From a virus, in the IMG/VR virus record IMGVR_UViG_3300009537_004357, positions 1 through 42,069 of that record: a DNA stretch of 42,069 bases; one strand, 5' to 3'. The number at the start of each line of letters is the position of its first letter. Within the stretch, counting starts at the first letter, position 1. This document shows positions 12,313 to 32,808 of the stretch, in pieces. The position numbers and the translations under genes were made by a program. The notes below the pieces were generated by a model, which was not told where the DNA came from, did not search any database, and was given only the letters and a program-made list of their open reading frames with translations.

Positions 12313-12422
12313 ACCACTCCCCGATCTTGTTGTCGTCGCTCATGGCCGCTTCGGCCATCCCTCGCGCGGTTCCGCAGCGCGAGAACATGAATCGCTCACC
12401 ACTCCCCGATCTTGTTATCGTC
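12313..12422. repeat. 85-bp-spaced direct repeat duplicating a gene 3' end
   Basis: A 25-bp sequence beginning ACCACTCCCCGATCTTGTT occurs at 12313-12337 and at 12398-12422 with one difference. On the minus strand both read DDNKIGEW followed by a stop: the second is the true end of the gp36-like gene and the first forms a mini frame, MSDDNKIGEW. Between them lie two hairpins, ATGGCCG-CTT-CGGCCAT (12342-12358) and CTCGCGC-GGTTCCGCA-GCGCGAG (12361-12383). The arrangement looks like an inserted hairpin element flanked by duplicated target, or a local slip duplication. Confidence 0.8.
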
Positions 12423-12824
12423 AAAAACATCAGGACTGCTCTCATGGTCCTTCGTGGCCGCACCGGTCCCGCTCGTTTGCGTCTTCCCGGGCTGATCCAG
12501 GCTCACTTTCCCGGTTGAGACATCGCGCAGGAACGAAATCGCCCGGTCGTAAATGGTTTGCAATTCCTCCGGCACTCTTCGGCGGCGCGCGAAGAGGTAA
12601 TAGACGGCCAGATCGAGAGCCAAGCCTTTGATCTGCTCGCTCACCACCAGCGGCAGCGCGTAGATCGTCCCCGCGTAGGAATCCAGAGTCGCGCCGGCCC
12701 GATCAATGGCCGCCGTGACCACGTCGGCATTCACTTCGCCGGCGCCGTCGTCGTCGGTCAGCTCGATCAGCTCCTTCTCGCTGAGCCGCGCCGGAACCAG
12801 GTCGTCTTGTGCGATGTAAGGCAT
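12396..12824 (-). CDS. Gp36-like (DUF1320) head-completion protein
   Basis: A 142-residue DUF1320/Mu gp36-type protein. Matching features are the opening MPYIAQDDLVPARLSEKELI, VVTAAIDRAGATLDSYAG, YALPL, and the helical LALDLAVYYLFARRRRVPEE, all standard in the family, whose members join the capsid to the tail. The C-terminus ends DVFDDNKIGEW, which is duplicated 85 bp downstream. The upstream spacer holds the elaborate nested palindrome at 12828-12904. Confidence 0.9.
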   Translation of the reverse strand: MPYIAQDDLVPARLSEKELIELTDDDGAGEVNADVVTAAIDRAGATLDSYAGTIYALPLVVSEQIKGLALDLAVYYLFARRRRVPEELQTIYDRAISFLRDVSTGKVSLDQPGKTQTSGTGAATKDHESSPDVFDDNKIGEW

Positions 12825-12905: not shown

Positions 12906-13130
12906 TTATTTCTTCTCTCCCGCCTTCTCCTGGCCGCCTTCCTTCTGCTTCTCGCCCTGCTCGGGCGGTTTCGGTGGTGCGGGCGGCTTCGGGGCCGCTT
13001 TCTCTTCTTCTGGCGCCGCGATGGCCCAGGGCATGGCTTCCGCGTCTCTCTTCGAGAGATCGATCGAATCGCCGGGCTCGTACGTCTTCCCGTTCATCTT
13101 GATCTGCGTTTTCACCTGGAACTTCGCCAT
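12906..13130 (-). CDS. Small beta-barrel-like phage protein with Pro/Lys tail
   Basis: A 74-residue protein. The first half, FQVKTQIKMNGKTYEPGDSI and DLSKRDAEAMPWA, matches a common type of small phage protein with an SH3-like fold placed between capsid and gp36-type genes. The second half is a low-complexity Pro, Lys and Glu tail (KPPAPPKPPEQGEK). ATG at 13130 has AGGAGAAATC upstream. Possible role in head completion or capsid surface; uncertain. Confidence 0.75.
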   Translation of the reverse strand: MAKFQVKTQIKMNGKTYEPGDSIDLSKRDAEAMPWAIAAPEEEKAAPKPPAPPKPPEQGEKQKEGGQEKAGEKK

Positions 13131-13151
13131 GATTTCTCCTTTCCGAGCCAA

Positions 13152-13202: not shown

Positions 13203-14093
13203 TCAGTTCGTCAGCAGCCGCGCCCCGGTTGACGTGCCATCCGTGATCACACAGACCGCTACGTTGGCCGGTGCGAGAATACCCAACGGGATGATCCCGA
13301 TGGGCGGGTTCGTGATGGGCCCCAGGATGGTGGTCGTCCCCGTGCCGCAATTCGTCCCCGTGCCATAGCGGACCGTGACCGTGCCCGTGCCACCCGCCGA
13401 CTTTTCAACGAGGATGGCGCGGATGTACGTCTGGTCGCCGCCGGAGGTTGCCGCCACCACTTCGGTAAGGGTCGCCGCGGCCACCGCCGCAGAGAGCGTC
13501 GAAAGCTGGCCGATCTGAAGCACGCCGGCGCCCAGCGCGCCGACGCCTTCATTCAAGTAAGCGGCATCAACCCCTGAACCGTTAGCAAGCTTTGTGGGCC
13601 AGGGGTCGGAGCTGTCGGCGGCTGCGCCGCCCTGCGTGACTTCGCTGATCGTGGTGTTGAACGTCTGCCCGATGCTGTTCGTAAGGGTGACGTACACCGT
13701 GACCGTGGGCGAAGAGCCGCCGGTGAGCGCCGTCAACTCCATATTGAAGTAATTATCGATGCCCGCGATCGACTTGTTCACCGCCGAGGTGCAGGTGATC
13801 GAGGCGTTCGCATCGTCGGCAACGATGGTGGCCAACGCCGCGGTGGGCCCCGTATAGAACTTCACCGTGCAACCCGAGGGCGAGCCGGTAGGCACCACGC
13901 GGATCAGGGCGCTCGTGAAATTAAGCGCCGGATTCCCTGAACTCCAGAAGAGCCCCGTGGTCGAGCGCGTCACCCCGGCATAGGAGTACTTCACGTTCAC
14001 GATCGGCGTCCGCGATTGCGCCGCCACCGGAGCCGCTGCCAGCAAGGCGAGCGGCACCAGCAGCAACGCGGCAAGCAGTTTCTCCTTTACCAT
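13203..14093 (-). CDS. Secreted protein of unknown function inside the head operon
   Basis: A 296-residue protein with a clear Sec signal peptide: MVKEKLLAALLLVPLALLAA then PVAAQS, with probable cleavage after AAQ or VAA. The mature part is beta-rich with Thr, Ser and Gly (ATIVADDANASITCTSA, FNMELTALTGGSSPTVTVYV, then an Ala-rich helix ALGAGVLQIGQLSTLSAAV, then GTGTVTVRYGTGTNCGTG). It carries few cysteines, possibly disulphide-bonded. It lies between the major capsid gene and the head-completion genes with a strong GGAGAAGGAAGAA leader, so it is expressed with structural genes. I do not recognise the family. An envelope or periplasmic role during late infection, or a decoration protein with a misleading signal, are both possible. 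Confidence 0.8.
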   Translation of the reverse strand: MVKEKLLAALLLVPLALLAAAPVAAQSRTPIVNVKYSYAGVTRSTTGLFWSSGNPALNFTSALIRVVPTGSPSGCTVKFYTGPTAALATIVADDANASITCTSAVNKSIAGIDNYFNMELTALTGGSSPTVTVYVTLTNSIGQTFNTTISEVTQGGAAADSSDPWPTKLANGSGVDAAYLNEGVGALGAGVLQIGQLSTLSAAVAAATLTEVVAATSGGDQTYIRAILVEKSAGGTGTVTVRYGTGTNCGTGTTTILGPITNPPIGIIPLGILAPANVAVCVITDGTSTGARLLTN

Positions 14094-14120
14094 TTCTTCC
14101 TTCTCCTTCTCCCCGGTTTT

Positions 14121-14153: not shown

Positions 14154-15092
14154 TTAGGCGACCGCGTTTTTGACCAAGTAGAGGGTCTGCACCGCCGTGA
14201 TCTTCTGGTGGTAGTAGTCGTCCGCGCCGACGATGTCGGACTTGGCGGTCGGATTCGGGTGGCGCGCCTTCACCACGCCGATGCCGCTGCTCGTGCCCGG
14301 CGCCGCGCTCCAGCGGAACGTCTTCACGCCGCTCACGTCCATCCGCCCGGCCGCCCGGTTGCGGTAGCCGATGATGGCGTGTTTGCCCCAGACAAAGCCG
14401 GGGACGCCGGCCGCCACTTCCACCGCGCGGCCCACCAGGAATTCCTCGACGCCGAACACGGCGGCCAGATCCTGCTCGTTCAGCCGGCCGCGCTGCACGT
14501 ATTTGAAGAGTTCCTTGATTTCCCTGTTCTGGATCAGCTTAGTGAAGACCGCCTCGCCGACGGCCATGAAGTTCGGCGCCACGCCGGACTCACGGATCTT
14601 CGACTTGCCGGTTTCCACCACGCCGATGGGGTCGGAGTTCAGCAGATCACTCCACTGATCGCCCCCGGCCAGCGTGATGTTGTTCGTCACCTGAGCGGTA
14701 TCGGTCAGCATGGTGGCCAGCTCCTTCTCCCGCTGGAGGAGGATCTTTTCCATCATGGTTTGCACGGCATCCTGCTCGATGTCGCCCGCCTCCGCGTAGC
14801 CCGGGCGGTCCTCGTCGGCGATGTTCGCGGCGAGCGCGTGGCTCCGGCAGAAATAGCTGTCGGTCGAGAGCGCGATGCGGATGGCCTCGGCCGGGGCGCC
14901 GGTGGCGCGGAGTTGCTGCTCGGTCAACTCCTGGCCCTCACGCCCATAGATGTAATACTTGTCCGATTGCCGGCCCACCAGAACGGCGGGCGCGATGCGG
15001 TCCGCGATCAGCTCATTATTGCTGAACTTCTTCGCGAAATTCGTCAACGCCGCGTCGAGGTGTCCGACAAGGGGAGCTGCAGAAGATCCCAT
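14154..15092 (-). CDS. Major capsid protein
   Basis: A 312-residue capsid-type protein: a short N-terminal helix (HLDAALTNFAKKFSNNELIA), a segment YGREGQELTEQQLRATGAPA, a long spine-like helix region (DIEQDAVQTMMEKILLQREKE split in two), then TLAGGDQWSDLLNSDPIGVV, a pattern common in HK97-fold capsids of Mu-like siphophages, and MAVGEAVFTKLIQNREIKELF. The C-terminus DYYHQKITAVQTLYLVKNAVA is the expected closing beta strand. GGAGGAAAACGAA precedes ATG. It follows the decoration gene and the protease/scaffold gene, the usual order. Confidence 0.9.
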   Translation of the reverse strand: MGSSAAPLVGHLDAALTNFAKKFSNNELIADRIAPAVLVGRQSDKYYIYGREGQELTEQQLRATGAPAEAIRIALSTDSYFCRSHALAANIADEDRPGYAEAGDIEQDAVQTMMEKILLQREKELATMLTDTAQVTNNITLAGGDQWSDLLNSDPIGVVETGKSKIRESGVAPNFMAVGEAVFTKLIQNREIKELFKYVQRGRLNEQDLAAVFGVEEFLVGRAVEVAAGVPGFVWGKHAIIGYRNRAAGRMDVSGVKTFRWSAAPGTSSGIGVVKARHPNPTAKSDIVGADDYYHQKITAVQTLYLVKNAVA

Positions 15093-15199: not shown

Positions 15200-15601
15200 C
15201 TAGTAGCGGCTGGCGCCGCGGAAGTTCAATACGAACTCGTCCCCGTCGGCCGCGGCCGGGCTCACGGCCTCGCCGTAGATCCCGTCATTGTCCGTGGTCG
15301 TCGGGGTGCCCTTGCCGTTCGCGTCGGCCGTCTTGATCTGGTCACCGGCGGCGACGACATCGTCGGCGATGTGGATGCATTCGCCGTCGACACAGACGGC
15401 GACCGGGGCGTCCTCAGCCGCGTCTTCCACCACGATCCCGCGGACCTTCAGGTTCCCTGTGGCCACCGATCCCGGTGCCTTCACCTGGTTGTCGGCCGTG
15501 CCCTGGACCACCGCCATCCCGCGGGTGAGGGCTCCACCCTCCGCGAGGAAGGTCCGGATCTCGGGAATCCCCGAAAGGCCCCTGGTTGCTTTTGCTCCCA
15601 T
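15200..15601 (-). CDS. Capsid decoration / DUF2190-like protein
   Basis: A 133-residue beta-rich protein resembling the DUF2190 family and related head decoration proteins: FLAEGGALTRGMAVVQGTAD, LKVRGIVVEDAAEDAPVAVC, VAAGDQIKTADANGKGTP and a C-terminus EFVLNFRGASRY. These proteins sit between protease and capsid genes in many siphophages and stud the capsid surface. AGGAGA lies upstream of the ATG. No export signal. Confidence 0.8.
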   Translation of the reverse strand: MGAKATRGLSGIPEIRTFLAEGGALTRGMAVVQGTADNQVKAPGSVATGNLKVRGIVVEDAAEDAPVAVCVDGECIHIADDVVAAGDQIKTADANGKGTPTTTDNDGIYGEAVSPAAADGDEFVLNFRGASRY

Positions 15602-22445: not shown

Positions 22446-22646
22446 TCACCAGGTATGTTTTTTGCGCCCGCGTTCGATCTCTTCTTTGAAGACGGGAGTC
22501 GAACGGAATGCGTCGGCCTCATCTGCTGTGGCCAGCAGTTCCGTGGCGAGCTTTTCGCCTCCGGTCCACTGCGGCACGAACTGCGCCGCCAGGCGCAGCA
22601 GGGTGGCCACGATGATCAAAATCGCGTCAATGGATGCCGCTTTCAT
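22446..22646 (-). CDS. Small membrane-anchored protein of the lysis cassette
   Basis: A 66-residue protein with one N-terminal hydrophobic helix (AILIIVATLLRLAAQFV) and a soluble charged C-terminus (EKLATELLATADEADAF). Its ATG overlaps the lipoprotein stop (ATGA). One span plus a soluble tail fits an inner-membrane spanin or a regulator of lysis, paired with the adjoining lipoprotein; this is an inference from order and topology. Confidence 0.68.
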   Translation of the reverse strand: MKAASIDAILIIVATLLRLAAQFVPQWTGGEKLATELLATADEADAFRSTPVFKEEIERGRKKHTW

Positions 22647-23143
22647 CGGATCGCCTCCTTAGCCGCGACGAGGGCGGCCAGGCCGTTGGCCATCAGTGAT
22701 TCCAGATTTCGCTCTGCACCCAGCACCGGGGCGCAGGGACCGCCGCGGCCGTCGCCGTCTTGGTCTACGCCGTATGGCTCGCTGCCCGGCAGCGGAACGC
22801 CCGAGCAGTAGACGTTGATGGCGTCGCCCAGCGCGTTCTGCGCGTCGATGCTGGAATGCAGCGCCGGACAAATCCCTTCCTTCGCGGCGGGCCGGTCCGC
22901 CGAGCATTCCGGGTGGTTCTTCTGGGCCTGTCCGATGAAGGCTCCCAGTTTTTCATACACCCCGCGCGCGAGTTGCTCGGTGGTCAGCGCACCCACGACC
23001 GGCGCGCGCGCCTGCTTGGGACCGCAGCCAGGCAGAGCGAAAGTTAGGAGGGACAGAACGATGAGCGCCACACTCCGCCTTCCTCCTGTCCCCCGGTTTT
23101 CTCTCCGGGATCCGCAGTAGGCCAGATTCGGGTTTGTCTTCAT
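22643..23143 (-). CDS. Lipoprotein of the lysis cassette
   Basis: A 166-residue lipoprotein read from ATG 23143 (GGAGGAGCAGG upstream); an ATG at 23170 overlapping the endolysin stop would add nine residues. The hydrophobic segment SVALIVLSLLTFALPGC ends in a lipobox with Cys40. The mature part includes a DQDGDGRGGPC motif of the calcium-binding Excalibur/EF-loop kind, and several cysteines. A gene just after the endolysin in the same operon is often an outer-membrane spanin, but this mature part is longer than usual for Rz1. Envelope location is well supported; the precise role is not. Confidence 0.78.
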   Translation of the reverse strand: MKTNPNLAYCGSRRENRGTGGRRSVALIVLSLLTFALPGCGPKQARAPVVGALTTEQLARGVYEKLGAFIGQAQKNHPECSADRPAAKEGICPALHSSIDAQNALGDAINVYCSGVPLPGSEPYGVDQDGDGRGGPCAPVLGAERNLESLMANGLAALVAAKEAIR

Positions 23144-23166
23144 CGTCCTGCTCCTCCGTTCCGTTT

Positions 23167-23511
23167 TCACGAGGCTCCTTCGCGCAGCCAGGCCTCGCCC
23201 TGCTTCGGGTCGTACTCGATGTGGATGTGGTCCGTCTCCAGCACCACATCGAAGCCCAGTGGTCCGAGCGCCGCTTCCAGGTCCGCGTGCACCTGGCAGA
23301 CCTGCGGCGCCGTCAGGTGGCGCGTGCGCAGGTCCGCGCCCAGCCCTTTGTTGTGGAGACTTTTCGGGCGTTTCGCGTGGCTGTCGGTGAGCGAGGTAAC
23401 TACAAGAGGTTTACGGAGCGCGCGATAGATCTCCTGCGCCACACCCAGCGCGAACCAGATCATCGCCTGCACGCCTTCGGTCCTTACTCCGCGTTTCAGT
23501 TGCAAGACCAT
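23167..23511 (-). CDS. M15-type peptidase endolysin
   Basis: A 114-residue zinc peptidase of the M15 kind. It has SLHNKGLGADLRT (res 51-63), the SxHxxGxAxD motif with H53 and D60 as zinc ligands, and DHIHIEYD (94-101) carrying the third His and catalytic-site Glu. The family cleaves peptide stems of peptidoglycan. There is no signal peptide, so it should depend on a holin. Small membrane and lipoprotein genes follow directly, forming a lysis cassette. The start is uncertain: ATG 23511 has a poor ribosome site and ATG 23463 is an alternative, though VVTSLTDSHAK is needed. Confidence 0.85.
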   Translation of the reverse strand: MVLQLKRGVRTEGVQAMIWFALGVAQEIYRALRKPLVVTSLTDSHAKRPKSLHNKGLGADLRTRHLTAPQVCQVHADLEAALGPLGFDVVLETDHIHIEYDPKQGEAWLREGAS

Positions 23512-24774: not shown

Positions 24775-25206
24775 CTACTCTTTTTTCTCTCCCGATGGTG
24801 CGATGGTCCGATGGGAAAATGTCTTGTCCTGGCTGCTATAGCTCCAGCCGGCATCCGCCCATTCCCGAGGATCCTCGGGGATGCCGTTGGCTTTCAGCCA
24901 GCCCGTGAAGCGCTGCCACTTCACCTGCGCGCGGCGCTGCAGCTCGTCGATGGAGATCGGGATCTCCACCTTGCCGGAGAGCGCGGAGATGCGGGTGATC
25001 TCGTTGATGATGAGCTGGCGGTCGTCGAGCGCTTCGGTAATTTCCGGCGGCAGAGGGATGGAGCGATTTTCGGATTTAGTGCTTGGTGGATTGGCGGCGG
25101 GAGATTCGCCGGAGGCCTTTGCACTCTGGCCCCAGCAGGGCGCAGCAAGCAGCGCCCCTACGAGGAGTAATCCGAAAATCAGATAATGGATCAATGGTCC
25201 TTTCAT
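24775..25206 (-). CDS. Secreted small protein, function unknown
   Basis: A 143-residue protein with a Sec signal peptide (IHYLIFGLLLVGALLAAPCW then GQS). GGAGG lies 6 nt upstream of ATG 25206. After a low-complexity linker, the folded part is LPPEITEALDDRQLIINEIT, then ISIDELQRRAQVKWQRFTGW with LKANGIPEDPREWADAGWSY. The tail SHRTIAPSGEKKE is the translation of a CGATGG-type repeat. It follows the two giant secreted proteins 13 nt downstream and may act with them in the envelope. I do not recognise the family. Confidence 0.75.
   Translation of the reverse strand: MKGPLIHYLIFGLLLVGALLAAPCWGQSAKASGESPAANPPSTKSENRSIPLPPEITEALDDRQLIINEITRISALSGKVEIPISIDELQRRAQVKWQRFTGWLKANGIPEDPREWADAGWSYSSQDKTFSHRTIAPSGEKKE
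24791..24824. repeat. CGATGG-type dispersed repeat at a gene 3' end
   Basis: CCCGATGGTGCGATGGTCCG followed by ATGGGAAAATGTCT. It encodes the C-terminal tail of the 143-aa secreted protein. Confidence 0.75.
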
Positions 25207-25219
25207 TGTGTTCCTCCTT

Positions 25220-28200
25220 TTACGTCGCTGGTCTGCCGCGCGGCACGGTGCGGCATCCCGGACCCACGCCCTGGTAGCAGTAGGGGTAGGGAGCTTCTTT
25301 GTAGTAGAGCGTCCAGGTATCCGTGGCCGTGCATTTATATGCCTGGCGCTCATCCGTGGCCCAGTAGAACACCTGGGCGTTCTCGGTTGACGCGGTACAT
25401 CCCGCGCGCTGGGCAATCGTGCCCACACAGACACCCGAGGGGCAACTGGTGCCCGGCGTCCACGACGTATTCTCGTTCACGAAATCGCGGTTCTCATTGA
25501 TGAGCGTGTCGGCAGACCGCGCATTTGCGCCGCCGCCGTGCTCCTCGATATTCGCAAAGGCCAGCGGCGGCACCTGCGGCTGATTCGGCCAAGCCGCCGG
25601 AGTGGGCGGGCTGCCGCTCATCAGATCGCCGCCCGCGCGGCCCACTTGGTCGAGCGCGGGATAGACTTTGTTGACCTGGTAGCTGTCGCCTGGGTCGATG
25701 CCGTGCGTGGTGGTCCCTTTCGAGGCGCAGATGGTCAGTGTGGTCGCTGTAGAGCTGCAAATCGTCGAGGCCCAATCCTGTGTGACGTTGCGGAACGTAT
25801 AGTCTCCTGTGCCGCAATTGCCGCCTGCGCAGGCAGTAGTGAAATCCTTGGTGGTATCTTCGAGCAGGTCCGTGCCCGAACCCGCCGTGGCCGTCCCGCT
25901 CACAAAGGGATTTGAGGCATCGTTTTTGTCGTAACTGCCCACGCCGCTCGCGCAGCCATAAGGGGTCCAGCAATCCGTGGCGCGGAACAACTGGAGCTTC
26001 ACCGGGTTCGGCTTGTAGTAATTCGTCCCGGTGTCCTCCCAGGTGATGTTGTAGAAAAGGCCGGTGCCGCCGCGAAGAATGCCGCCCGAATCGTGATTCG
26101 CGCTGGGCGGCGTAAAGGTACAATCGTGGACAATCAGCGCCAGGTGGCTGCGCCGGATGTTCGAGCTGTCTGTGCCGTGATTGGTGAGGTCACTGATGGC
26201 GATGCCGCTTGAATCCGCCACGCAGTAGCGCACGATGGCTTTTGCACCGTCGAAGCCGTCCACCGCGCCGGGTCCCACGGCCGGAGCCGTATCCCGCAGC
26301 GTGGAGTCCTCCACCACGATCCAGCCCGCGAGCGACCCGCTGGTCAGGTCGAGCGATTCTCCCCAGTTGCCCATGCCGTTCACTTCGCCGCCGCAGCCGC
26401 CTTGATGGAACTCCACGGGAATCTTGCCGGAGCCGACGTAGCGGATGTGGTCAATCACGCCTTCCAGACAAGAGTCCGAGCCGAAGACGACGCCCTTGGA
26501 GCGCGGGTTGGTCCAGTTCACATGGTCGATGCGGAAGGGCGTGCTGTTCACGCCGCCCAGGGTAATCACGCCGTTGAAGTGCGTGGCTCCCACGCCGACA
26601 ATCTCCAGATTCGTGATGCGGACGTGCCCGGAACTGATCCCGGAAACGGCAATCAGCGCCGTATTCGCTCCGGCGTCGTCGCCGATGATGGTGCGCGGCC
26701 CCGCGCCCATGGCGTTCCCTGAACCCATCAGCGTAATAGCCTTCGTGATATTGAGCTTACTCGACCAGTTTTCCTGCGTGGGGCAGACGGGGATCACCAC
26801 CGTGTCTCCAGCTGAAGCGGACCCCACCGCCGAATTGACATCCGCGAAGGCGCAACTGGCGGCTTCGATGCCCGCCGGCGGCTGGGGCGGAAAAGCGGCC
26901 ATAAAGCGTAGGCCCTCTTCCTCGAGGCCGGCGGCGATGCGCACCAGCTTCCAGGCCGGCACCGGCCAGCGCATGCGCCGCGGAAGATTTGTCCATCGCT
27001 CCATCGGATCATCGGGCCATCGCCCAGATCGATCGCCAGGTGGAAAGATCTTCCGATCAAATGATTGCCTGATGATGGCGGTAGTACGGCGTTTCGTGGG
27101 CGCAGCCGGCGCGGTGATCCATTCGATCATCATGTAGAGCGCGGTGGCGCGGCATTCCTGGGGACCGCCGAGAGATACGGTGGTATAGCCGATGTCGAAA
27201 CTCTGGATGTTGGCTTTGGTCTTGCCAGCCGTGTTGAGCGCCAGGAGGGAATGCTGCTCGGGGGTGGACCAGGAAGCAGTATCGCACATGGCCGTAACCG
27301 TGCCCGAACTGCTTGAGCCGCCCTCGTCCCACACTTCCCATGCGGCAGTGCCCGAGCCGGAGGTTGACGAGCCCCCCATTTTGCCGAGCACATGCACCAG
27401 GCGGATCACGGCGTCGCTAGGCACCTCGGTGGGAATCGTCGAGATATTGAAGCGGTCAGTAAGGCCGTTTGTCGCCCCTGCGTTGTAGCCCGAGGCGTCG
27501 TCCGGGGTTCCCGGCAAATCGTCCACGCAGTCGGTGTTCGTGGTGCCGCTGCAATTCGCCCCCGTCTTGGTGAAGGCCACCGTGTCGTCAGACGCCGGCT
27601 TCACAAAAGCCATGTTGCGCCCGCAGGCCGGGACCCCATTCTGAAAGCTTCCCGCCTCGTCATTTACTGCTAAATCGTCATAGCTGAGCACGCCGGCAAC
27701 GCTTGAGCCTTTGCCGACTCGCAGAAGCAGGATATTCGTGGGCAGGGTATCTTCCCCGGTGATGGAGACCGAATCGAGCAGCGTGCAGGAATCGTCGTAG
27801 AGGCGCAGGGCCATCGAACCGCCTGAATCGGCGATCACATGGTCGAGCTGCACCTCATACCAGGTGGAGGCGGAAAGCGATGCCGTGGTGTCCGCCGTTG
27901 TGGCGGTTACCGCATTGGTGAGGCGCAGCTTCCCGGTGGTCAGCAGGGTGGCCTGCAAGGCGTTGGCGGCGGCGTTCGACTGGTCGGCAAAAAATATAAT
28001 GTCGGCTCCCGGCGTGGCCGTGCTGGTGGTGAAACGCATGGCCACGAAAAGCGTGCCGGTGGTCTTCTGGGCGGCAAGTTGCGCCCGGGCGATGGAGCTG
28101 GACGCCGCGTTATTCGTATCCATCCGGTAGGTGCCGGAATGCGGGCTGGTGGTGCCGCAGGTGGGCGCATTGCCGATCGCTGTGTTGAAGGCAACGAGGA

Positions 28201-28312
28201 TATTGTTCGTTTCGCATCCGAAGCTGATCAGGCGGTCGGCGCGCGCGGGCGGCACGCACAGCAGAATCACGCCGCAGATCAACGCAGCCGGGATGTGGCG
28301 TAGGAGGCTCAT
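25220..28312 (-). CDS. Giant secreted LamG-like plus beta-helix protein
   Basis: A 1030-residue protein starting at ATG 28312, overlapping the upstream stop (ATGA), with a Sec signal peptide (LLRHIPAALICGVILLCVPP then ARAD). Residues about 60-210 look like a LamG/concanavalin-type beta sandwich (LFVAMRFTTSTATPGADIIF; STWYEVQLDHVIADSGGSMA; LSYDDLAVNDEAG). About 330-430 is another beta domain with CRATALYMMIEW. A proline/Arg-rich linker from a CGATGG-type repeat follows, then a right-handed beta-helix-like region with ITLMGSGNAMGAGPRTIIGD, VRITNLEIVGVGATHFNGVI and IDHVNWTNPRSKGVVFGSDS. Many paired cysteines fit an exported location. Possible glycan-binding or depolymerase role; no catalytic residues identified. 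Confidence 0.82.
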   Translation of the reverse strand: MSLLRHIPAALICGVILLCVPPARADRLISFGCETNNILVAFNTAIGNAPTCGTTSPHSGTYRMDTNNAASSSIARAQLAAQKTTGTLFVAMRFTTSTATPGADIIFFADQSNAAANALQATLLTTGKLRLTNAVTATTADTTASLSASTWYEVQLDHVIADSGGSMALRLYDDSCTLLDSVSITGEDTLPTNILLLRVGKGSSVAGVLSYDDLAVNDEAGSFQNGVPACGRNMAFVKPASDDTVAFTKTGANCSGTTNTDCVDDLPGTPDDASGYNAGATNGLTDRFNISTIPTEVPSDAVIRLVHVLGKMGGSSTSGSGTAAWEVWDEGGSSSSGTVTAMCDTASWSTPEQHSLLALNTAGKTKANIQSFDIGYTTVSLGGPQECRATALYMMIEWITAPAAPTKRRTTAIIRQSFDRKIFPPGDRSGRWPDDPMERWTNLPRRMRWPVPAWKLVRIAAGLEEEGLRFMAAFPPQPPAGIEAASCAFADVNSAVGSASAGDTVVIPVCPTQENWSSKLNITKAITLMGSGNAMGAGPRTIIGDDAGANTALIAVSGISSGHVRITNLEIVGVGATHFNGVITLGGVNSTPFRIDHVNWTNPRSKGVVFGSDSCLEGVIDHIRYVGSGKIPVEFHQGGCGGEVNGMGNWGESLDLTSGSLAGWIVVEDSTLRDTAPAVGPGAVDGFDGAKAIVRYCVADSSGIAISDLTNHGTDSSNIRRSHLALIVHDCTFTPPSANHDSGGILRGGTGLFYNITWEDTGTNYYKPNPVKLQLFRATDCWTPYGCASGVGSYDKNDASNPFVSGTATAGSGTDLLEDTTKDFTTACAGGNCGTGDYTFRNVTQDWASTICSSTATTLTICASKGTTTHGIDPGDSYQVNKVYPALDQVGRAGGDLMSGSPPTPAAWPNQPQVPPLAFANIEEHGGGANARSADTLINENRDFVNENTSWTPGTSCPSGVCVGTIAQRAGCTASTENAQVFYWATDERQAYKCTATDTWTLYYKEAPYPYCYQGVGPGCRTVPRGRPAT
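26992..27059. repeat. CGATGG-type dispersed repeat inside the 1030-aa gene
   Basis: A 68-bp stretch of CATCG/GATCG units (CCATCGCTCCATCGGATCAT, CGGGCCATCG, AGATCGATCGCC, AGATCTTCCGATC). It is in frame and encodes an Asp/Arg/Trp-rich linker (SGRWPDDPMERWTNLP) between the two halves of the secreted protein. It may mark a fusion point of two formerly separate genes. Confidence 0.65.
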
Positions 28313-31300
28313 CGCGTCCCTACGATCACCACGCGCAGGTTGGTGGCGGTTCCGCCTGCTGTGGCGGTGTTGGCATCCACTGTGCTCGTAGACGTAAGCG
28401 TGGGCGCGCCGTTCAGCGTGCCGTTGGCAAATGAGCCGGTGCCGCAGGTAAGCGCGCCGGTCAAAATAGAGTCCGAGGCTCCGCCGGTGAGAATGGGAAG
28501 CACCGTGGGCGACCCCGCATCGGCCCAACAGCGCACCGCCGTGATCGTCACGGTGACTCCCGTTTCGTTGCGACACGAGGCAGCCTCATCGTCCGTATCC
28601 TGCAGGACGCCCGAAGCACCGCTGCCCCAGATATGCAGCTCGCAGGTCCAGATGGCGTACTTCGCAGCCAAGGTGGTGGCATTTGACCCGCTGGTGGTCA
28701 CGGCGCCCGAAAGCTCGGCGGCCGACCAGGTGCCCGTGGAGACGCGCAGCACACCCGTTGAGCCGCTGGTATCAATCCCCGTGCCGCCGCGCGCCGCTTC
28801 GATCTGTCCGGCACTGAAAAAGGCGGTGGCGGAATCGCCGGTCAGGGCATTGCCCGCTTCCCCATCGCCGGCCGCGTAGTTTCCTGTCGTGTCCGTGGTA
28901 AGCGCCACGGAATTCGCCGCCACAGCGGTAGCCTGGCCGGAGGAGTTGCCGTAGGCGGCGTACTGCAGCGCGGGGGTGGCCGCGTTGTCGCAGTATTGCA
29001 GCGGCGTGGTGTGGACTTGGATCTTGCCCTGCGTCGAAGCGCCGCAAGTAAGGGCCCCGGAGGCCAGGAAATCGGCCTCGCTCGAGGCGGTGACCAGCTC
29101 GGCGCCGGATACCCCGATGCCTGCGCCGTCAATCGACGTCAGCAGCAGATGCGCGGAAACGTTGTTCGGCGTCAGCGCATCCTTCTGCCAGATCACATTG
29201 ACGGCATTCGCCGGAGCGGCGGGCGTGGCATCGTCGAAATCGGCGTCGCTGGCGGCCGCCCCGTTGACGCTGATATTGTCGCCCGAGCCTCCGCCGCAGC
29301 CTGCGCCGGAATCGCCGAGCTTGCCTCCGGTGACCCAGGTAACGCAGTTGCCGTTTGTGGGATCGGCGCCCAGCGAAGTGGTGGCCAGCTTCGTATCCGG
29401 AGCGGAGCCGTAGCGCGACCAGGCAAAGCCGATGTCTCCGGTCGTGGCGCTGAGCGTGACCGGCGAGCTGGCGCTGACGGCCATGGTGCCCGCCGCAGAA
29501 GGCCATTTCACGGTCACCACGGTAGCCGTGGGCACGTTTGAATCCACGTCAAATTCGCCTTCCTTATCAGGGTCAACGGAGCCTTCCACGCGGAAGGGGT
29601 CGGCGGCACCGGAATCTTTGAACGTGCTGTTCAGTGTGATGAGGCCAACGGTTTCCGCTCCGCCGGTGATACTGGTGATCCCCAGAACCTGATTGACCGC
29701 GGCGCCGGAGAAATTCACACGGGGAACGACGCCCGTGGTCCCGTATTCGTCGCTCAGCACGCCCACCAACTGCGCGGAGGTGGTGGCCGCAAAGAAGCCG
29801 AGATTGTCGGTGGCGTTGGGAACGGCATTGCCGCCTTCGGTAAGCGTGGTGGCGGCCGCCGTGCCGGTAACCGTGAGTGTGGAGCCGTCGAAGGTAAGAT
29901 TAGTTTCCGAAACGCAGCCCCCCGCGCCGTCGTCGGTCACCACCTGATTATTCGAACCGCTGACCGTGCAGCCGGAGCCGCCGGGCGGTACGGCCCAGGT
30001 GGCGTCGGCTTTCAGAAACTTTCCGGCGGCCGCATCGCCCGCCGCAGGCGCGGGCACAGCGCCCTTGGTGCCTCCGGCGCCGGAATCACCCACCATGGTG
30101 GGATAATCGGCGGCCTGGATGGAGGACGAAACGAAATTCGTTCCATTGCCGCGCAGGTATTCGCCGGAACTGGCGGCGCCAGAAATCTGATAGCCCACCG
30201 TGGAATTCACGGACGTGAAGAAATTGCCGCCTTGGAAAACCCCTGCGCCCGTGGTGGTGCCGCCGCCTCCTCCGAATTCGTTTCCACCTAGATCGTAGAA
30301 GCTGCCTGCATTGTTCACGGCGAAGCCTGTGCCCGTCGAACAAAGCTGTGAACCGCTCACATAGGCTTTACCGCCCGCGACCACTCGGACCCCTGTGTAA
30401 TTCGCAGCCGCCGAACATTCCTTGTTCCCGCCGACCGTGGAGCCGATCACCCAAACCCGTGCCCCGGATACGGCTACATCGATCGCCGTGCCGCCGGCCA
30501 GGGCCTGGGTGGCGAAACCGTGCAGCCAGATCGTGCCGTAAGGCGTCTGAAAAGCCACATAGAGCGCCGTGGGCGCTGTCGACAATCCGCCGATGAGCTG
30601 CGTATTCGCGTCGAAACTCCAGATGCCGCGGTTCAGGGCACTGACAATGGGCCGTAGGAACGAAATCCCTGTAGCGGAAATTTTCAGGCCCACGTCGCAG
30701 CCGATCGATTCTACGTAGAGATGCTGGCTGCCATCCGTGCCAAAGAGAATACAGGGCCTGTTCGAGACCAGCCAATTCGAGACGCGGATATGCCGGCTGT
30801 ATTTGGCATTCAGGCGAATCAGCGATTCCGTGCCTCCGGGAGGCGAGGGGGCGCCGGGGAATTCGTTGTCCACCGAGAAGCCTTCGTAGGTGTTCTTTTG
30901 GGACGAACTATCGATCAGGTAGATGCTCGTGGCATAAGGAAAATCAAAGGGTGGAAAAACGAATTGGGTCAGGTCGGGCCCGTCGCCGCGATAGGCCACG
31001 CGCTGAGTGGTTCCAGAAAGGATTTTATCAGTGACTAGATATTTCCCCCCGGGCAGGTAGAGCACCGCGCCAGATGTGAGCGCCGCCTCGGCGGAATTTA
31101 TGGCCGCTGTGTCGTCCGTGCCGATCCAGGCGCCCACGGCCGAATTGTTGACTACCGCATTCCCGGAGAGCGTGATCTGGGTGTCTGACTGAAAAGAACT
31201 GACAGTGAGAAGAGGGATGGCATTTGATCCCCCCGAGGTGAGCGTACCGAAAATCTTTTTCCCCACGTCGCTGCTCTGAAAGCTGCCGGCGGGACCGGTG

Positions 31301-32808
31301 ATAATCGGCGAACCGTTCACGGTGGTAAGGCCCGTCGCCTTGCGGGCATCCCCCAAGGCTCCGTAGTTCTTCACGTTGATCAGCGCGGAAGTGAACTCGC
31401 ATGTCAGCGCCCCATTGGCGGCGATGCCAATAGCGCGCTGGCCCGCAGGGCAGTCGGCGGGATCGGCAGCCAGGGCGCTGGCTGTGGCGGCGTTGCCGGT
31501 GATGTTTGAATCCGTATAGGCAAGCGTCTTGCGCGTGGGCCCGGTGGCCTGAGTGATGAAAAGGTTCGTGCCGTCCCATTCGAAGGCGTGGGCTTCGGCT
31601 GCGGTCAGCGCCGCTCCGGCCTGGAAATATACCGGCGCAGTGCCCGCCGAAGCGGTGCCAGCGCGCACGGTCAGGCTTCCCGTCAGCGTGCCTCCGGCAA
31701 GCGGCAAATAAGAAAGGCTGGGGATCCAGCCGGCGTCCAGTGTGCCGCCGGCGCCGGCTTTGGGGATGGCGTTGGCGGCGGCCGTGGCGGTGGCTACTTC
31801 GTCGCCGCCGGCATTCTGATGCGTGGAGGCGTGCGCGGTGGGCGTGCGGGCATCGGAATTGCGCGGGTCGGAATTCGTGACGTACTTATTGCTCGCCGAT
31901 GGCGCGCCGTTGGTCCCGGCCAGGGCCGCCTTTTCGTCGGTGCTGGGATCGTTGGCATTTGAGTGCGTCGCGAAATTCAGCGCCAGCTTCGATTCAGAGA
32001 TGGCCGCGGCGGCGTCCACGTCGGCGTTGCTGACGAGCTGTGCCGTGCCATCTTCGACGCCGTCGGTGACGTGCCGGAAGCCCGTCCCGCCGGGCACGCT
32101 GCCGCCGCCGGCCGGGTTGCAATCTGTGCCGGTCTCATCTTTGCACTTCATTTTTCCGGTGGCCGTATCGAACCACCAGTGCGCGCGGCCCGCAGGCGCA
32201 TTGCCGGGATCCGCGCTGGCGACATAGATTTCTTTATCCAGGATGATGCCGTTCGACTGGAACTGGACGGCACTGGCCTGGTTCGAAGGCGCGGCCGGCG
32301 CCAAGTCGGCCCAGTCCACCGAGCCCTGGTCGGGCACCACCTTTACCTGCTCGACCTCCACCTTGCCCAGCTTGAGGGGCTCGGTGGCGGCGGATGGGTT
32401 GAGCTCGAGTTTCAGCTCGGTGGCCAGGCCCGAAGGCGAGCAGCCGGAGTTCGGCACGCGCGGGATGCCCAGGTTGCCGGCGGAGTCGATCCATTTGCCA
32501 TCGCCGCGGATCCAGCCCTGCGACGGGCCCACGTAGGTGACGCCGCCGCAGGTGACTTCGCGGTAGCGGACACAGCGCGTGCCGGTAGCGTCTGTCTCGC
32601 AGGCTTGGAGCTGCACGCGCCCATAGACGTTGGCCGCGGCGATCTGCGTCGAATAGGGACGAATGCCGGCCGCCAGAGGGGTGCGCTTGTCCTGGGTGAG
32701 CGTGGTCCCGGTAATCGTGGTGCCGGTCTGCGCCCGCGCCGCCGGTGCGGCCAGCGCGAGCGCCAGCAGAATAAAAATATTGCAACGTCGTAACGTCACA
32801 GTCTTCAC
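28309..32808 (-). CDS. Giant fibre/tailspike-like protein with Sec signal peptide
   Basis: A 1499-residue protein beginning MKTVTLRRCNIFILLALALA then APAARAQT, a textbook signal peptide with AxA cleavage. The start overlaps the zinc-finger gene stop (ATGA). About 200-400 resembles phage fibre shafts (PTAHASTHQNAGGDEVATAT; SYLPLAGGTLTGSLTVRAGT). About 480-800 is a pectate-lyase-like beta helix as in tailspikes (INVKNYGALGDARKATGLTT; LYLPGGKYLVTDKI; YEGFSVDNEFPG; IRVSNWLVSNRPCILFG). The rest is repetitive Ala/Thr/Gly fibre sequence ending in a beta domain. Normal tailspikes lack signal peptides, so either export is real or the fibre is a secreted form. It is unclear whether it enters the virion. 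Confidence 0.85.
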   Translation of the reverse strand: MKTVTLRRCNIFILLALALAAPAARAQTGTTITGTTLTQDKRTPLAAGIRPYSTQIAAANVYGRVQLQACETDATGTRCVRYREVTCGGVTYVGPSQGWIRGDGKWIDSAGNLGIPRVPNSGCSPSGLATELKLELNPSAATEPLKLGKVEVEQVKVVPDQGSVDWADLAPAAPSNQASAVQFQSNGIILDKEIYVASADPGNAPAGRAHWWFDTATGKMKCKDETGTDCNPAGGGSVPGGTGFRHVTDGVEDGTAQLVSNADVDAAAAISESKLALNFATHSNANDPSTDEKAALAGTNGAPSASNKYVTNSDPRNSDARTPTAHASTHQNAGGDEVATATAAANAIPKAGAGGTLDAGWIPSLSYLPLAGGTLTGSLTVRAGTASAGTAPVYFQAGAALTAAEAHAFEWDGTNLFITQATGPTRKTLAYTDSNITGNAATASALAADPADCPAGQRAIGIAANGALTCEFTSALINVKNYGALGDARKATGLTTVNGSPIITGPAGSFQSSDVGKKIFGTLTSGGSNAIPLLTVSSFQSDTQITLSGNAVVNNSAVGAWIGTDDTAAINSAEAALTSGAVLYLPGGKYLVTDKILSGTTQRVAYRGDGPDLTQFVFPPFDFPYATSIYLIDSSSQKNTYEGFSVDNEFPGAPSPPGGTESLIRLNAKYSRHIRVSNWLVSNRPCILFGTDGSQHLYVESIGCDVGLKISATGISFLRPIVSALNRGIWSFDANTQLIGGLSTAPTALYVAFQTPYGTIWLHGFATQALAGGTAIDVAVSGARVWVIGSTVGGNKECSAAANYTGVRVVAGGKAYVSGSQLCSTGTGFAVNNAGSFYDLGGNEFGGGGGTTTGAGVFQGGNFFTSVNSTVGYQISGAASSGEYLRGNGTNFVSSSIQAADYPTMVGDSGAGGTKGAVPAPAAGDAAAGKFLKADATWAVPPGGSGCTVSGSNNQVVTDDGAGGCVSETNLTFDGSTLTVTGTAAATTLTEGGNAVPNATDNLGFFAATTSAQLVGVLSDEYGTTGVVPRVNFSGAAVNQVLGITSITGGAETVGLITLNSTFKDSGAADPFRVEGSVDPDKEGEFDVDSNVPTATVVTVKWPSAAGTMAVSASSPVTLSATTGDIGFAWSRYGSAPDTKLATTSLGADPTNGNCVTWVTGGKLGDSGAGCGGGSGDNISVNGAAASDADFDDATPAAPANAVNVIWQKDALTPNNVSAHLLLTSIDGAGIGVSGAELVTASSEADFLASGALTCGASTQGKIQVHTTPLQYCDNAATPALQYAAYGNSSGQATAVAANSVALTTDTTGNYAAGDGEAGNALTGDSATAFFSAGQIEAARGGTGIDTSGSTGVLRVSTGTWSAAELSGAVTTSGSNATTLAAKYAIWTCELHIWGSGASGVLQDTDDEAASCRNETGVTVTITAVRCWADAGSPTVLPILTGGASDSILTGALTCGTGSFANGTLNGAPTLTSTSTVDANTATAGGTATNLRVVIVGTR

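Follow-up and report, generated by a model that had tools for sequence, protein, structure and literature searches.

A predicted Sec-exported protein encoded directly behind the major capsid gene in a Mu-like phage

Results

A predicted exported protein in the head operon

In a Mu-like transposable phage, the gene directly behind that for the major capsid protein encodes a 296-residue protein whose export through the host Sec machinery is predicted and well supported by its own sequence and by those of its homologues. In tailed-phage head operons one would not expect a gene fixed in place after that of the capsid to bear such a conserved export signal. The reading that we favor, tentatively and by analogy, is that the product is a disulfide-bonded late protein, similar to XepA of the Bacillus subtilis prophage PBSX, that acts in the host envelope.

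The window (the whole stretch of DNA analyzed, an IMG/VR virus record of 42,069 bases) carries homologues of transposases A and B (phrog_310 and phrog_296) and a head and tail gene set that comprises terminase, Mu-type portal, cement, phage_cap_E-type capsid, gp36 and tail-completion genes. All of the features located here lie on the minus strand. The gene (13203..14093, an open reading frame [ORF] with an ATG start and with homologues) follows the major capsid gene (14154-15092; phrog_1005, E 3e-63) after a gap of 60 bp, and an ordinary capsid cement gene (15200..15601; Phage_cement_2) lies further upstream. Downstream are a small DUF7210-like ORF (12906-13151; E 1e-4, under the Pfam cut-off) and the gene for a Mu gp36-like head-completion protein (12396-12824; Pfam E 2e-28). 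A purine-rich, ribosome-binding-like stretch (14094..14114) stands just 5' of the ATG, and a search of the 60-bp gap for promoter-like or terminator-like sites found none. The transcript is probably shared with the capsid gene, and the protein would thus be made in large amounts at assembly time.

The N-terminus reads as a textbook Sec signal, MVKEKLLAALLLVPLALLAAAPVAA|QS (residues 1-25, 14019..14093; called by a home-made rule with controls), with a lysine in the n-region, a 10-residue hydrophobic core of mean hydropathy 2.9 and the predicted cleavage site VAA|QS. This bears out the initial annotation, which had placed a protein with a Sec signal between the major capsid and head-completion genes.

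Family members, gene order and probable hosts

The 296-residue protein has no match in Pfam, PHROGs, NCBIfam, the PDB sequences or cultured-phage records. Searches of cultured phages by tblastn, with this protein (E up to 1) and with a short-form homologue (E up to 10), likewise returned no match, and a distant relative (L130) gave a chance-level match alone. A scan of viral sequences with the 296-residue protein as the sole query found no relative, and the family was reached by way of the capsid: a capsid search gave 80 loci, the nearest of which (L002, capsid identity 69%) encodes in the same place a signal-bearing protein of 163 residues, homologous to the C-terminal part of the 296-residue protein. 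With the L002 protein as query we obtained 25 loci, and a search with the family alignment gave 32 viral loci (several of them re-fetched records) and two bacterial contigs. In literature listings we found no description of a signal-bearing protein beside a capsid gene, and on sequence grounds we regard the protein as representing a new family.

The family takes two forms. Both have a signal; the short form has a single beta-sandwich after it, and the long form has two sandwiches with a disordered linker between them. The window encodes the long form, and its nearest capsid relatives (L121, L002, L107 and L083) encode short forms. More distant proteins related to the C-terminal domain (L103, L106, L124-L126 and L130; profile E 5e-18 to 3.5e-10) also bear signals, and their genes do not adjoin a capsid gene of this type.

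The family gene stands directly after the capsid gene in all 20 loci in which this was measured, at a distance of 57-195 bp. We also started from the capsid side, where 63 loci of the wider capsid family extend far enough downstream to be judged (17 more loci were too short). In just one of them, L002, does a signal-like ORF with 90 residues or more start no further than 400 bp past the capsid gene, indicating that the arrangement marks a subset of the phages with this capsid rather than all of them. Further capsid scans added few loci, including two (L140 and L141) with no signal gene after the capsid.

The two bacterial contigs with a homologue are labeled Terriglobia (L107) and Acidobacteria (L108). 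Among 396 genomes from the phylum of the L107 genome, that genome alone gave a strong match, with two others weak and broken. From the contigs and this search we conclude that the hosts are probably soil bacteria of the Acidobacteriota and that the family gene is uncommon.

Conservation of the signal and of paired cysteines

The initial annotation had named absence of the signal region from homologues as the finding that would speak against export. The home-made rule, which asks for the features of a Sec/signal-peptidase I substrate (n-region, hydrophobic core and AxA-like site), is positive in 32 of 32 homologues as against 656 of 6,400 whole-protein shuffles, indicating, as far as sequence can, that the signal is not a chance trait of one ORF. 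A stricter rule selects all 20 family genes. Applied to 158 homologues of 13 virion genes from the same loci, it selects six, five of which belong to one cement family. The type of signal is kept although its residues change, and AxA-Q-like sites occur in most homologues. In the three pairwise comparisons of L086, L087 and L091, dN is 0.29-0.50 over the first 30 codons (whole gene, dN 0.06-0.08 and dS 0.42-0.73), and the N-termini nonetheless stay signal-like; such fast change with the character preserved is the pattern of cleaved signals. Two observations weigh on the other side, namely that three pairs involving L096 show no faster change of the signal region in the same dN comparison, and that two short forms (L002 and L083) have a poor site, with proline at position -3 of the likely cleavage point.

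The cysteines of the mature proteins are paired. The pair in the C-terminal domain is invariant in 22 of 22 alignment rows and that in the N-terminal domain in all nine long forms. The mature part has an even number of cysteines in 31 of 32 homologues (the exception, L103, has five), a count for which positions were read by eye against the likely cleavage site and in which rows include close relatives and so are not 32 independent events. Among capsid homologues, 16 of 20 have an odd number. The pairing fits predicted disulfides formed outside the cytoplasm.

Predicted structure

An AlphaFold2 model built from 17 sequences (mean pLDDT 72.7) consists of two beta-sandwiches and an unstructured stretch. 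The N-terminal sandwich (residues about 31-140, 13674..14003, with Cys75 and Cys101) is followed by a low-confidence, probably disordered linker (residues 142-197, 13503..13670, pLDDT <50) and by the C-terminal sandwich (residues about 198-296, 13206..13502, with the motif GTGTNCGTGT and Cys249 and Cys281). In the prediction, the N-terminal domain is a C2-like beta-sandwich of the type found in the C-domain of XepA (Z 12.2 over 100 residues, root mean square deviation 2.2, 16% identity, model residues 31-139) and in YomS of the SP-beta prophage (Z 11.7, model residues 26-139); the next match has Z 9.8. The C-terminal domain, modeled alone with mean pLDDT 84.8, reaches a best Z of 8.6 that is tied, or nearly so, among unrelated folds (nucleoplasmin cores, Ena pili, phage cement and PHM), and its weak matches to phage head proteins (KHP40 cement, Z 8.2; a pentameric phage capsid protein, 7.1; HFTV1 turret base, 7.0) are part of that tie. 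Matches in BFVD were set aside, being mostly long, poor superpositions. Neither phmmer nor domain profiles run against the PDB sequences matched XepA or YomS by sequence.

According to the available text of the report on these two proteins (PMC6834076), XepA (PDB 6i56) is late, exported and absent from virions, and is built of two beta-sandwiches and a linker; YomS (PDB 6i5o) is the one-domain form, and the domain that best matches ours is the one through which both form pentamers. The same text describes plaques on several Bacillus species with full-length XepA, leaves open a transient role of XepA in the capsid, places the xepA gene in the lysis cassette and reports no signal peptide for it (PMC6834076). 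The 296-residue protein resembles XepA in being a late phage protein with predicted export. Its model also has two sandwiches and a linker, but the second sandwich is not clearly XepA-like. The protein differs from XepA in its Sec signal, its capsid-side gene and its conserved cysteine pairs. We did not assign it to the XepA family, because no sequence homology was found and because gene place and signal differ. With YomS the family shares the fold of the N-terminal domain and the existence of one-sandwich forms, but its one-sandwich members retain the C-terminal domain rather than the YomS-like one, and they bear a Sec signal, to which the text available on YomS makes no reference.

Independence from the capsid

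A decoration protein would be expected to follow in its sequence the capsid that it binds. Pairwise identities within L094-L101 do not behave in this way. L094 compared with L096, L097, L098 and L100 has capsid identities of 37-39% and exported-protein identities of 79-82% (39% and 79% with L100), with gp36 at 96-97%; L099 compared with the same four has 33-34% and 84-88% (33% and 84% with L100), with the tail tube, where present, at 27-29%; and L094 and L099 have 33% and 76%. Conversely, between L099 and L101 the capsids are 93% identical and the cement proteins 91%, yet the exported proteins are 63% identical. Over all loci, distances of the exported protein correlate with those of the capsid at Mantel r 0.55 and with those of gp36 at 0.75, as against 0.91 between capsid and cement. 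From these identities and correlations it appears that the exported protein travels with the operon yet swaps freely against capsids. This argues against tight decoration of the capsid, and is behavior that a host-facing protein could show.

The same loci display shell-block swapping: in L094, L099, L100 and L101 capsid and cement differ strongly, and neighboring genes are about 80-97% identical.

Discussion

Candidate functions

Action on the envelope was among the guesses of the initial annotation, and it is the one that fits best, by way of the XepA-like fold; the interpretation in that annotation is, as a whole, partly upheld. The late protein would leave the cytoplasm through the host Sec machinery and lose its signal peptide by cleavage, and its one or two beta-sandwiches would fold in the periplasm with one disulfide each; the mature product, perhaps as an oligomer, would then act on the envelope of the host in the late phase of infection or at lysis, just as XepA is exported late and is absent from virions. 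Fold, layout and timing make this, in our judgment, the most likely function, with a probability a little short of even. The protein is probably not a regular part of the capsid. Several points count against the envelope reading: in the text available on XepA no signal is reported and its gene is in the lysis cassette, no sequence match to it was found, the C-terminal domain has no clear fold match, the fixed place beside the capsid gene is also what one would expect of a decoration protein, and genes for lectin-like fibers come right after the family gene in L099 and L102. If the reading is true, the protein represents a new phage factor exported late in infection, and the role of exported late proteins that are absent from virions, the question posed by XepA, becomes testable in Gram-negative hosts.

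An unlikely alternative is that the protein is exported, folds with its disulfides in the periplasm and binds heads as an outer decoration when lysis mixes the compartments. The invariant place of the gene, the jelly-roll-like C-terminal domain with its weak, tied matches to head proteins, the adjoining lectin-fiber genes of L099 and L102, and the relative of the C-terminal domain that forms the end of a fiber-like protein in L124 all favor it. Capsids of 33-39% identity accompanied by copies of 76-88%, and capsids of 93% accompanied by copies of 63%, weigh against it, as does the ordinary cement gene already in the window, and an export detour is unusual for the head parts of tailed phages. 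Known cement and decoration proteins, such as KHP40 cement and the HFTV1 turret base, share with the 296-residue protein a jelly-roll-like sandwich and a capsid-adjacent gene, but the fold match is at background level, and these proteins are, to our knowledge, virion parts without a Sec signal, which here is called in 32 of 32 homologues and by the stricter rule in 20 of 20. The suggestion that the protein coats released particles is weakened: its place beside the capsid gene would fit, and the independence of its sequence from the capsid's does not. Were it nevertheless found on particles, tailed phages could be said to make virion parts using the oxidizing periplasm.

We also give little credence to the possibility that the protein is a factor at the surface of a lysogen or an infected host cell, where it would change adhesion or cause superinfection exclusion by blocking receptors. 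Predicted export and conservation across differing capsids, and in the L099 pairs across differing tail genes as well, would suit such a factor. The gene, however, belongs to the late head operon and no promoter-like site precedes it, so it is probably silent in a lysogen, and it keeps one place, whereas genes of this kind usually move about.

A broader proposal, two-compartment virion assembly, in which tailed phages would send surface proteins through Sec to acquire disulfides and have them join virions at lysis, would take in the 296-residue protein together with two signal-bearing fiber-like proteins of the window (1,499 and 1,030 residues); we consider it improbable. Least probable of all is that the hydrophobic N-terminus does not act as a Sec signal and that the protein is a virion component of the ordinary kind, a reading that the gene position and the passing of the loose rule by 656 of 6,400 shuffles would allow, but that sits poorly with the paired cysteines, the AxA-Q-like sites in most homologues and a signal type kept in all of them though residues change.

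Other signal-bearing genes

The view of the protein as a fourth member of an exported set is a fair one, since three other products of the window, also on the minus strand, begin signal-like. The first (28309-32808, GTG start) is the 1,499-residue fiber-like protein, with a Sec-like signal, a weak pectate-lyase match and 23 cysteines, unusual for a phage fiber; the second (25220-28312; phrog_14065, E 2.5e-12) is the 1,030-residue fiber-like protein, with a Sec-like signal and 28 cysteines; and the third (24775-25206) has 143 residues. The last of these and a 175-residue protein with a lipobox-like LPGC (22643-23170, minus strand) are encoded near small membrane ORFs, one of which has a weak holin match.

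In other loci, the main genes inserted after the family gene in the head operons of L099 (4622-5716) and L102 (8024-9655) were considered as carriers of a second signal and rejected; they encode lectin-like (Laminin_G_3) fibers without a signal, the match in L099 being just under the Pfam cut-off. In L103 (4712-8679), five consecutive genes with signal-like or lipobox-like N-termini, one of them a distant relative of the C-terminal domain, follow a gene for a 1,009-residue protein that is perhaps the tape measure. The fiber-like protein of L124 (2581-6318) has 1,245 residues and bears a signal, and it is its C-terminal end that is related to the C-terminal domain of the family.
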